Below, piece by piece: positions 16,538 through 19,947 of a DNA stretch of 64,000 nucleotides; the first letter of the stretch is position 1, and every line of letters starts with the position of its first letter. The DNA is from Actinomadura terrae (GTDB taxonomy: Bacteria; Actinomycetota; Actinomycetes; Streptosporangiales; Streptosporangiaceae), in contig NZ_JAICDG010000004.1 of NCBI RefSeq assembly GCF_022751215.1, forward strand, positions 558,001 to 622,000. The letters are read 5' to 3'. Both the position numbers and the translations under genes were made by a program. The notes under the pieces are model-generated. The model made no database searches and had not been told where the DNA came from. It was given only the letters and a program-made list of their open reading frames with translations.

Positions 16538-16682
16538 CCGGCCTTTCCAGGGCATCGGTAACCACGAAACTCAATGTCCGATTCTCCCCGGCACGCCGCA
16601 CACCAGGGATATCCGCCGCCACCCGGGAAAAAATACTTCGACCGCGATGCAATCAAGGCCGCACCGGTTGAAAAAGGGACCG

Positions 16683-16711
16683 TTGACCGCTTCTGCGGCG
16701 CGGCTTACCGT
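16683..16711 (+). promoter_or_regulatory. Promoter of the DUF4360 operon
   Basis: TTGACC (16683-16688), a 17-bp spacer and TACCGT (16706-16711) form a plausible housekeeping promoter. It would start transcription about 42 bases before the first DUF4360 gene, and no other strong promoter was seen within the array. Confidence 0.5.
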
Positions 16712-16759
16712 CGCGGTGAACTCGCCGGTGAGATATCGCTGCGAAATGGAGACACGGCC

Positions 16760-17377
16760 ATGGAGAAGACCGGAAAGGCGGCGTTCGCCGCGGTCGGCGC
16801 CACCGCCCTCCCCCTGCTGACGGCGCTCCCCGCGTCCGCCGACCCGGCACCGCCCGCCGTCATCCAGGTCGAGTCCACCCCGACGTCCTGCCCGGTCGAG
16901 ACGATGGTCGTCGCCTCCTCCCCGAAGGACGGCAGGATCAGCCTCCACCCGTCGTCGTTCAGGGCGTCCGTCGGGAAGGACGTGCCGGCCGAAGCAGCCC
17001 AGAAGTCCTGCAAGCTCGCACTGCGGCTCATCATGCCGGTGAGCTCCACCTGGGCACTCGAAAGCATCGGCACCAACGGCACGGCGAACCTGGACCGCGG
17101 GGTCACCGGCAAAGTGACGCAACGCTACCGCCTCCAGGGAAGCGCCCGGCACCACGAGATCTCGCACACGCTCAAGGGCCCCGACGCCACCTTGCAGTTC
17201 GACGACGAGACGCCACTGGAATTCGCCCCCTGCGCGGAGCAGCGCACCCTTGAACTTGAAACTCACCTCCAGGTGAAGTCGCCCGACGAGACCCGCTCCG
17301 GCTCGATCGCAACGGAGTTCCCCGGCGGCGGCACGACGTACAACTTCGTCTACAAATCCTGCACGCCGGAGGAATGA
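16760..17377 (+). CDS. Secreted DUF4360 protein, copy 1
   Basis: 205-residue secreted protein: signal peptide with cleavage after ALPASA (residue 27), then one DUF4360 domain. The four conserved cysteines are at 44 (TSCP), 84 (QKSC), 158 (APC) and 201 (YKSC), enough for two disulphides. Other family marks are SSTWALESI, GTANLDRGVTG and the FDDETPLE stretch. DUF4360 proteins are small exported proteins of bacteria and fungi without known function. The ATG at 16760 has GGAG eight bases upstream. The frame is open from 16574, but the added residues hide the signal peptide. It heads an array of four paralogues and is followed six bases later by copy 2. Confidence 0.88.
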   Translation: MEKTGKAAFAAVGATALPLLTALPASADPAPPAVIQVESTPTSCPVETMVVASSPKDGRISLHPSSFRASVGKDVPAEAAQKSCKLALRLIMPVSSTWALESIGTNGTANLDRGVTGKVTQRYRLQGSARHHEISHTLKGPDATLQFDDETPLEFAPCAEQRTLELETHLQVKSPDETRSGSIATEFPGGGTTYNFVYKSCTPEE

Positions 17378-17383
17378 TCCCCC

Positions 17384-18007
17384 ATGAGGAACACCAGAAA
17401 AGCAGCGCTCGCCGCACTCGGCGCGACCGCCCTACCCCTGCTGACGGCAACCCCCGCGTCCGCCGACCCGCCACCACGGGTCACCGTCAAAGTGGTCTCC
17501 CTTTGGGGGTGCGGGGGCACTAATTCGGCGGTCGCCACCGTTACTCCCCCTTCACCTGACGGATTTGGAGTCAGCGTCTACACTGCGGCCTTCAAAGCGT
17601 CCGCTGGGAAGGATGTACCCGCCGAGGAGGCCCGGATTACCTGCAATTTGACCCTGATCATCAACCTCCCACTGGAATACACCTGGGTGCTCAAGAGCAC
17701 CAAGCTCCGCGGCACGGCGGACCTCGCCCCTGAGGCAACTGGCGAGGTGGCGACCAGGAACTGGATCCAAGGAAAAGATCCGGGCCGCGAGATCTCACGC
17801 ACGATCAAGGCTCCGACACAATCCTGGCGGCTCGAAGACCAAACGCCACTGGAAAATCCCTGTGGAGAAGCCCGCTTTTTCACCATTTCTACGCGACTCC
17901 AGGTGACGGCGGCCGACACAGTCAGGGCGAGCTCGATATCGATGAATGAACCACCCGACGGCAGAGCAGATTTCACCTTCGGCTACAAGTCCTGTAAGCC
18001 ATCATGA
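17384..18007 (+). CDS. Secreted DUF4360 protein, copy 2
   Basis: 207 residues, signal peptide ending ATPASA and the four DUF4360 cysteines (LWGCGG, RITC, NPCGE, YKSC). The N-terminal sequence RKAALAALGATALPLLTA is nearly the same as in the neighbouring copies, while the mature parts are strongly diverged. That pattern suggests old duplication with conservation or conversion of the export signal. Its stop codon overlaps the start of copy 3 (ATGA), so the two are translationally coupled. The function of the family is unknown. Confidence 0.88.
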   Translation: MRNTRKAALAALGATALPLLTATPASADPPPRVTVKVVSLWGCGGTNSAVATVTPPSPDGFGVSVYTAAFKASAGKDVPAEEARITCNLTLIINLPLEYTWVLKSTKLRGTADLAPEATGEVATRNWIQGKDPGREISRTIKAPTQSWRLEDQTPLENPCGEARFFTISTRLQVTAADTVRASSISMNEPPDGRADFTFGYKSCKPS

Positions 18008-18618
18008 AGGCGACAAGGGAGGCGGCGCTCGCCGCGATCGGCGCCACCGTACTGCCCCTGCTGACGGCACTCCCCGCGTCCGCCGGCCCGAAATTACCGG
18101 TCAGCTTCGAGATAGCGACGGTTTCCTGCCCGCTCGGGGCGGTGAACATCTCTATCGCCACGGCACCAGAGGAGGCAAAGCTTCGCCTCAACGGGGCGGA
18201 CTTCACGGCGTCCGTCGGAAGGGACGTGCCTCTTAAGGACGCCCGGAAGCTCTGCCAGCTCATCCTGATCCCCCACTTTGCGGTTCCCTCGACCTGGGCA
18301 CTCAAGAGAATCGAGTCTCGCGGTACCGCAAACCTGGAGCCAGGTGTCACCGGCGAGGTAGCGAACAGGTACTGGATCCAGGGAAACGCTCCGGCCCGAG
18401 AGATCTCGCACACGATCGAGGCTCCGACGCGGTCCTGGTACTTCGACGACGAAACACCGCTGGAATTCGCTCCATGTGGACAAAGCCGAAGTCTCAGCCT
18501 TGGAACGCGGCTTCAGGTAGAGTCGTCCGACGTGAAGGGGGCCGGCTCGGTATCGCTGAATTCTCCGGACGGCGGAATAACGTACACCCTCGTCTACAAG
18601 CCCTGTCAGCGGTCATGA
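18004..18618 (+). CDS. Secreted DUF4360 protein, copy 3
   Basis: 204 residues, signal peptide ending ALPASA, then DUF4360 with cysteines in VSCPLG, RKLC, APCGQ and YKPC. It is closest to copy 1 (STWALKRI, GTANLEPGVTGEV, ISHTIEAPTRSW, FDDETPLEFAPC). Start and stop both overlap the neighbours by four bases (ATGA at 18004 and at 18615), so copies 2, 3 and 4 should be made in fixed proportion from one message. Confidence 0.88.
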   Translation: MKATREAALAAIGATVLPLLTALPASAGPKLPVSFEIATVSCPLGAVNISIATAPEEAKLRLNGADFTASVGRDVPLKDARKLCQLILIPHFAVPSTWALKRIESRGTANLEPGVTGEVANRYWIQGNAPAREISHTIEAPTRSWYFDDETPLEFAPCGQSRSLSLGTRLQVESSDVKGAGSVSLNSPDGGITYTLVYKPCQRS

Positions 18619-19211
18619 AGACAAGAAATACGACGCTCGTCGCAATCGGCGCCATCACCCTGCCCCTGCTGACGGCGGTTCCCGCGTCCGCCGCGCCAAA
18701 ACCGGCCGCCAAAGTCCAGGTCATCCGGTCCATCTGCCCGGGGGAGGTCTCCGTCTCCGAAGACGGGGGCAGGGTCAACGTCACAATCAAGAACTTCAAG
18801 GCGTCCGTCGGGCCGGATGTGAATCCCGCGGAGGGTCAAAAATCGTGCGGTTTCCTCGTAAACATCCACATACCGCAGGGTTTTACCTGGGCGATCGCGA
18901 ACACCGACACCCGCGCCACGGCGGACCTGGACCCCGAAGTCGTCGGCGAAATCATGCAGAGCGCTCGGATGTGGGGAAGCCCAGGGGCCGACGTGAGCAC
19001 GCACCAGTTCACCGGTCATAAGGGCAACCTTCTGTTCACCGATAAAGTACCAGTTTCACAACTGAAGTATGCCCGCTGCGGCGCGCCGGACCTTCTCGAT
19101 CTTGAGACGCGCATCCGCGTGACCTCATCCGACCCGTCCGGGGAGGGCTGGGTCTCATTGGACTTCCCCGAGGGCGGGATAACGTACTCCATCGCCTACA
19201 AGAAGTGTTAG
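18615..19211 (+). CDS. Secreted DUF4360 protein, copy 4
   Basis: 198 residues and the most diverged copy. The signal peptide ends AVPASA, then come cysteines in RSICPG, QKSC, YARCG and the C-terminal YKKC. It keeps IPQGFTWAIAN, close to the general DUF4360 consensus. The DETPLE segment of copies 1 and 3 is replaced by TDKVPVSQ. The ATG overlaps the copy 3 stop. A longer frame from 18474 would run through copy 3 in another frame and is rejected. The next gene, for the triple Cys/His repeat protein, starts 70 bases on. Confidence 0.88.
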   Translation: MKTRNTTLVAIGAITLPLLTAVPASAAPKPAAKVQVIRSICPGEVSVSEDGGRVNVTIKNFKASVGPDVNPAEGQKSCGFLVNIHIPQGFTWAIANTDTRATADLDPEVVGEIMQSARMWGSPGADVSTHQFTGHKGNLLFTDKVPVSQLKYARCGAPDLLDLETRIRVTSSDPSGEGWVSLDFPEGGITYSIAYKKC

Positions 19212-19281
19212 CGGTAGCACTGGGACCCCTCCCGCCAGGAGCGGGCTACCGTCCGAACCTGTCCCAAGACAGGAGGCGGAC

Positions 19282-19947
19282 GTGGGAGCTGCGGCACTGG
19301 TCACCGGCATACTGGTCGTGCTGGCGGCGGTAGGCGGAGCGATCGCCGCACAAAGGCTTCGCGCCAGGGCTCGGCGTCCGAGCGTCCCGGATCTGGCGCG
19401 GGGCAAGGTCTGTCTGTTCTGCCTCACGCGCGTGTCGGTCGAGGGACGCTTCGCCACCGTGGACGAGCCCACGGCGCGAAAGGCGCTCGGTGCGACGCCG
19501 CCCGAACAGTCCGGGTTCACGAACCACAAGGGCGAGCGGCATTTCCTCACCCACATAGATTGCCTGCGCGACGCGCAGGACGAAGTGTGCATGTTCTGCC
19601 GCCAGGGAATCCTTCCCGGCGAGACGATCGCGTTCCTCGATCCGCCGTACGCGCGGGCGCAGCTCGGCGAGGAGCCGATCGAAAGGTCCGCGGGTGTGAG
19701 CCCCCAGGGCGCCCCCGGCTTCTTCTCCCACGCGGACTGTGCGCACGAGGCGGTGAAGACCGTCTGCATGTTCTGCCTGAAGGAGATGGAGGTCGGCGAC
19801 GTCACCATCGCCTACGAGACGCACCGCGCACGCGAGCTGCTCGGTGCGGAGCCGTCCATACTCTCCGATTTCACGGACCGGAAGGGACGGGAATGCCATG
19901 TCGCCCACGCGGAATGCGCACGCGCCGCCGGAGAGGGCACCGGCTGA
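19282..19947 (+). CDS. Membrane-anchored protein with three 59-residue CxxC/HxxC repeats
   Basis: 221 residues that I do not recognise as a named family. Residues 5-23 form one transmembrane helix, followed by a basic stretch (RLRARARR). The rest consists of three repeats of exactly 59 residues, each with a CxFC motif (C44/C47, C103/C106, C162/C165) and an HxxC motif 44 residues later (H91/C94, H150/C153, H209/C212). Each unit thus offers three Cys and one His, a plausible tetrahedral zinc site. Between them lies a shared pattern A-R-x-x-L-G-x-x-P. The orientation suggests a cytoplasmic C-terminal domain. The GTG start has AGGAGG five bases upstream. A structural zinc or redox role is inference. 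Confidence 0.85.
   Translation: MGAAALVTGILVVLAAVGGAIAAQRLRARARRPSVPDLARGKVCLFCLTRVSVEGRFATVDEPTARKALGATPPEQSGFTNHKGERHFLTHIDCLRDAQDEVCMFCRQGILPGETIAFLDPPYARAQLGEEPIERSAGVSPQGAPGFFSHADCAHEAVKTVCMFCLKEMEVGDVTIAYETHRARELLGAEPSILSDFTDRKGRECHVAHAECARAAGEGTG

Follow-up and report, generated by a model that had tools for sequence, protein, structure and literature searches.

What does a bacterial protein do with three cysteine/histidine modules set exactly 59 residues apart behind a predicted membrane helix? This question is raised by an open reading frame of Actinomadura terrae (19282..19947, plus strand; 221 amino acids, GTG start). It lies in a stretch of 64,000 nucleotides (contig NZ_JAICDG010000004.1, positions 558,001 to 622,000), hereafter called the window, whose coordinates are used throughout. 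The gene, which we refer to as the zinc gene, appears to encode a membrane-anchored triple zinc-finger protein. Our reading is that the product is a membrane-tethered cytosolic array of structural treble-clef zinc units that binds cytosolic partner proteins; to this statement as a whole we assign a probability of about 0.5.

The frame looks coding. Its guanine-plus-cytosine (GC) content by codon position (0.71/0.52/0.83) has the profile typical of a high-GC gene, and an AGGAGG ribosome-binding site can be read directly at 19271..19276 (plus strand), 5 bases before the GTG; it is also present in A. litoris. A relative of equal length (P0003; 65% identical, with a near-copy at the A. litoris locus L014) gives a ratio of nonsynonymous to synonymous substitution rates (dN/dS) of 0.59. 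In the protein, CxFC occurs at residues 44/47, 103/106 and 162/165 and HxxC at 91/94, 150/153 and 209/212. The period of 59 is far above chance: at this lag, 39 of 118 residues are identical, a number reached in 0 of 20,000 shuffles (maximum, 20), and none of 2,000 shuffles matched the lag-59 fraction at any lag from 5 to 119. A preliminary description of this DNA had listed the gene coordinates and motif residues, all of which were verified on the frame, and had called the repeats exact. Exact is their spacing, whereas the sequences have diverged: pairwise identities are 20, 21 and 19 of 59 residues, and 14 of 59 are common to all three units. The putative ligands are C44, C47, H91 and C94 in unit 1 (residues 42-100; 19405..19581), C103, C106, H150 and C153 in unit 2 (residues 101-159; 19582..19758), and C162, C165, H209 and C212 in unit 3 (residues 160-218; 19759..19935), all on the plus strand.

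Each unit had been proposed to hold one zinc site. Every one of the 19 units in ten homologous proteins keeps the C, C, H and C, and no protein of the ten is without the set; for three distant members this conservation is partly circular, because CxxC/HxxC was also used as a criterion for accepting weak matches. An excerpt of PMC4999995 describes the treble clef as a CxxC zinc knuckle, a β-hairpin and a helix that contributes the other two ligands from its N-terminal end. The knuckle supplying two ligands is present as C-x-x-C in all 19 units. AlphaFold2 (AF2), run on seven sequences, modeled each unit as a treble clef into which an ARxxLG helix is inserted, at a mean predicted local distance difference test score of 87. 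Short strands at residues 43 and 50 flank the knuckle in this model, and the predicted hairpin of unit 1 (strands 78-80 and 86-91) leads into a helix (92-98) with H91 and C94 at its start; units 2 and 3 are modeled likewise. One result weighs against this fold: the score was 36 when a single sequence was used, and the fold was not recovered with confidence. Because of this control we lowered our confidence slightly, and we still consider it very probable, judging from the model, that each unit is a zinc-binding treble clef. The invariant ligands and the treble-clef-like model thus support one zinc site per unit as a prediction.

The structural neighbors of the model include many treble clefs. 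In a Foldseek search, the best four PDB rows were LIM pairs (best expectation value [E], 0.023). HNH, Endonuclease VII and PARP-1 fingers are also among the neighbors, and phage HNH models appeared in a fold search of a viral library (no E below 0.001). Since HNH nucleases and the DNA-binding PARP fingers are themselves treble clefs, these matches could point to a nucleic-acid binder or nuclease. However, no further conserved His, Asp, Asn or Glu column common to at least 15 of the 19 units was found outside the zinc ligands, the units are neutral to acidic, and the protein has a predicted membrane anchor; we regard such a function as extremely unlikely. A role in buffering or storing zinc at the membrane would suit the three predicted sites per protein and the variable number of units in relatives. 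Yet four-ligand treble clefs are normally structural, and the conserved non-ligand residues (ARxxLG, P and G) are unnecessary for storage, so that we give this role very little weight.

The single transmembrane helix noted previously was supported by hydropathy and by the model helix. It is predicted at residues 5-23 (19294..19350, plus strand), a stretch with a best 19-residue Kyte-Doolittle mean of 2.43, and is followed by 5 Arg in 15 residues; the AF2 model shows an N-terminal helix at residues 2-31, and the single-sequence model one at 2-30. In the six N-termini measured, 0-1 Lys/Arg precede the hydrophobic helix and 3-5 follow it. By the positive-inside rule, these flanking charges predict an outside N-terminus and an inside C-terminus, with the units in the cytosol, a compartment in which free thiols and zinc are usual. 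On these sequence features, we judge a cytosolic location of the units to be highly likely, and the predictions of fold, zinc binding and topology are consistent with one another.

Cys-rich units predicted to face the cytosol on a membrane anchor might also form a membrane-tethered zinc or thiol sensor, in which oxidation or a metal change at Cys/His would release or recruit a partner in the cytosol, in the manner of zinc anti-sigma factors. C205 is the sole Cys of the window protein outside the CxFC/HxxC motifs, and a fifth Cys of this kind, four residues before the ligand His, is found in 7 of the 19, each of which is a second or third unit. A sensor could make use of this extra Cys, but it is not conserved. 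Furthermore, the order CxxC...HxxC differs from the HxxxCxxC of zinc anti-sigma factors, and no sigma factor is among the six neighboring genes of the window scanned with Pfam. We consider a sensor unlikely.

In the structural array that we favor, the protein would cross the membrane once, with its N-terminus exposed to the outside and its three zinc units lying one after another in the cytosol. Each 59-residue unit would be a mononuclear treble clef whose single, structural Zn2+ is coordinated by the CxFC knuckle together with the HxxC that opens the last helix, and a short ARxxLGxxP helix would be inserted between knuckle and β-hairpin. As a working guess, the units may act as beads on a string that grip one or more cytosolic protein partners. 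The membrane helix would then retain the partner complex at the membrane, and the number of units (1, 2 or 3 in relatives) would set the count of binding sites. A protein-binding scaffold is probably the role of the array, because protein binding is common among mononuclear treble clefs that lack catalytic residues, the units are neutral to acidic, and the unit number is modular.

How widespread is this protein? A search of 5.8 billion proteins with the window protein (P0001) returned its own copy (P0002), P0003 from Actinomadura sp. NEAU-AAG7, and P0004; alignment-based searches added P0005, P0006 and P0007 and then P0008. P0004-P0008, probably environmental, have two units each. The N-terminal helix is present in P0005, P0006 and P0008, while P0004 and P0007 start just before the first CxxC, perhaps owing to a late start call. 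Whole-genome searches added three divergent single-unit proteins. One (G377) comes from Streptomyces sp. NBC_00299, where its gene lies on a linear plasmid of 222,614 bases (NZ_CP108040.1); one from the genus of the window (G174) combines a membrane helix and one unit with an additional Cys-rich tail; and one from its order (G1054) comprises 121 amino acids with a membrane helix and one unit. Relatives with a membrane helix have one, two or three units. Towards their C-termini, the G174 and G377 proteins (L008:1195-1749 and L016:1192-1941, minus strand) have a stretch in common that contains paired Cys, Trp and, late in the sequence, an HxxC; it might be a second zinc module. At L033:8001-8519 (NZ_CP108040.1 71215-71733), the annotated protein WP_328884672.1 starts approximately 35 residues late and misses the CxxC of the unit.

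Overlapping sets of genomes from the family, genus, class, order and phylum were searched. Among 298 family genomes, P0001 had 5 matches at E 0.01, its own and four judged to be chance. The profile searches scored part of the first-look candidates (98, 16, 18 and 9 per genome among the matches listed for genus, class, order and phylum, respectively), so that their counts are lower bounds: the unit profile gave 4 matches in 65 genus genomes (own, A. litoris [G304], G174, and G247, judged chance), 4 in 394 class genomes (own, G377, and two judged chance) and 6 in 345 order genomes (own, G304, G174, G1054, and two judged chance), and a two-unit profile gave 2 in 396 phylum genomes (own and G377). 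The G377 protein had 3 matches in 246 genomes, itself and two judged chance. Ten weak loci (L002-L005, L009/G247, L017/G395, L018/G616, L024/G324, L025/G431 and L036/G227) were dropped because no CxxC...HxxC unit lay in the matched frame within 70 residues; the distant loci L008, L016 and L035, which have such a unit in frame, were accepted. A scan of genome contigs gave no match with P0001 and A. litoris only with query A1. No relative was found in phages (query P0006), plasmids (P0001 and P0005) or viral contigs (A3), and a plasmid search with the G377 protein returned its own record alone. By these searches, the family is rare.

Together with its upstream neighbors, four DUF4360 genes of which two were compared, the zinc gene has diverged fast. 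Between the window and A. litoris (16574-19947 and L014:4567-8666), these three genes share 66-75% amino acid identity with synonymous divergence (dS) of 0.33-0.39, whereas the six flanking genes show 90-96% identity and dS of 0.08-0.20. The raised dS common to the zinc and DUF4360 genes suggests that the block may have recombined or been exchanged together. The dN/dS of 0.59 and the patchy distribution might indicate a fast-evolving, lineage-specific gene with little present function. However, the zinc proteins of the window and A. litoris retain all 12 ligands and the reading frame despite differences at 76 of 221 residues, and the distant members retain the same C2HC unit, which leaves this explanation decidedly improbable. 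In a tree of units (13 of 15 inner branches not starred), first and second units separate, and the two third units are placed within the second-unit clade. The simplest story from these sequences is that the third unit arose by duplication of the second in the Actinomadura lineage.

The DUF4360 genes form a tandem array (16574..19211, plus strand; 16574-17377, 17384-18007, 18004-18618, and 18474-19211, the last with a likely start near 18615) and match Pfam PF14273 with 83-98 bits (cut-off, 27). The distance of 70 bases previously given between array and zinc gene is correct, counted from the last DUF4360 stop (19211) to the GTG; it is 64 bases in A. litoris. Cotranscription is possible, given the same strand, the short gap and the fact that neither a terminator-like nor a promoter-like site was detected in these 70 bases. 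A 6-bp hairpin (CCTGTC-CCAA-GACAGG, 19258-19273) lies right before the GTG and overlaps the first half of the AGGAGG; it might adjust translation, and a similar one precedes the start in A. litoris. RNA folds of the whole upstream gap were not significant (z of -1.21 in the window and -2.23 in A. litoris) and are too weak for an RNA element to be claimed.

The preliminary description had suggested that the protein is a membrane partner of the DUF4360 array. Such an operon partner, for example one aiding expression or export of these secreted proteins, would fit the shared strand, the short gap and the fast divergence of both gene types, whose block possibly moved or recombined together. The gene order Nudix - GntR - cytochrome b - DUF4360 array - zinc gene - S1 protease is identical in A. 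litoris, and the linkage is real in these two species. However, among the loci of five relatives (A. litoris and four located via the best cytochrome b match: G306, G310, G299 and G303), the adjacency recurs in A. litoris only. In G306, six DUF4360 regions, sharing 25-36% identity with those of the window, come after the orthologous cytochrome b (82%), and then a 309-amino-acid frame and others; no zinc-gene match was found there. Its S1 protease is 67% identical and in the opposite orientation and may therefore be a paralog, so that the correspondence of the locus is judged from the Nudix - GntR - cytochrome b side. G310 has a protease (65%) after cytochrome b, in an orientation unlike that of the window, and neither a DUF4360 nor a zinc-gene match; neither gene was found within the 16 kb examined in G299 and G303.

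Of the 65 genus genomes, 27 have DUF4360 and 38 gave no match; in some species, the family is strongly expanded, with up to 27 matches per genome. Of the 13 genomes with at least 13 copies, 2 have a zinc-gene match (own and G304) and 11 gave none in the unit-profile search. Conversely, no DUF4360 match was found in 14-19 kb around the G377, G174 and G1054 genes or in the whole G174 genome. The four DUF4360 proteins of the window have an apparent Sec signal peptide ending in ASA (by eye), and the solved relative Bd1399 is described in an excerpt of PMC10792529 as a secreted disulfide β-sandwich. With DUF4360 secreted and the zinc units cytosolic, the two are predicted on opposite sides of the membrane. 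The case for a functional partnership is weak and an operon partner improbable; the array, a neighbor of the zinc gene in the window and A. litoris but of a family unrelated to the zinc units, is probably context rather than a functional part of the zinc-protein system.

Does the protein belong to a known family? The preliminary description knew of none with this layout and proposed searches with single repeat units. Nothing scored above cut-off in Pfam (P0001, its three units, P0003-P0008, G377, G174 and G1054), NCBIfam (P0001), or PADLOC and PHROGs (both queried with P0001 and P0005); for PHROGs, which lacks a curated cut-off, the best E was 0.13. A sequence search of the PDB gave only weak, seemingly unrelated rows (best E of 0.016, isochorismate synthase), and titles and abstract openings in the literature yielded no description of the family. 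Thus, no clear match to a characterized domain emerged, and the absence of a described family held within this scope.

In the model, the units share the knuckle/hairpin/helix layout of the treble-clef group (RING, PHD, LIM, HNH, PARP Zn1/Zn2 and L24e), although no sequence match to these families was above cut-off. They differ from known treble clefs by the ARxxLG helix between knuckle and hairpin and by the membrane-anchored tandem array. RING and Prok-RING (PF13639, PF13920, PF14445 and PF14446) gave weak hidden Markov model matches (E of 0.035 to 4.6) and small structural matches. These domains have eight ligands and two cross-braced zinc ions, whereas the window units have four conserved ligands and no second site, and the one-unit G1054 protein has these four Cys/His only. 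Membership was ruled out by the missing second site and by scores below gathering cut-offs (zf-RING_2, 14.8/27.3 bits for unit 3; Prok-RING_1, 12.3/29.1 for P0008; Prok-RING_2, 13.1/22.4 for G377). HNH/His-Me nucleases were excluded because conserved catalytic residues outside the zinc site are missing, and zinc anti-sigma factors by the ligand order.

The likeness to LIM lies in the first-site order, CxxC then HxxC, and in zinc modules arranged in tandem. LIM has the layout HxxC-x2-CxxC, with its second zinc site directly behind the first. In the window protein, the next CxxC follows 9 residues after HxxC and is part of the next unit, and the G1054 protein has no CxxC after HxxC; moreover, CxxC and HxxC are 43 residues apart in the window units and 16-23 in LIM, as generally given. 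The missing second site rules out LIM membership. We describe a small, rare family within a well-known fold group, with a layout that is new as far as the libraries and literature searched here go: a membrane helix and a variable number of predicted C2HC treble clefs at near-constant spacing. It adds a zinc-finger family to bacteria, and if its function were trivial, its value would be that of a new family entry only. If the units bind proteins, it would offer a small, testable model of how unit duplication gives rise to modular zinc adaptors, and also a way into the membrane-proximal organization of actinomycetes. We tentatively suggest that the family may be a bacterial equivalent of LIM-type adaptor arrays, here anchored in the membrane: its tandem mononuclear treble clefs, each with the family-specific ARxxLG helix, would have grown from one to three units by duplication in actinobacteria and would serve as modular protein-binding beads under the cytoplasmic membrane.
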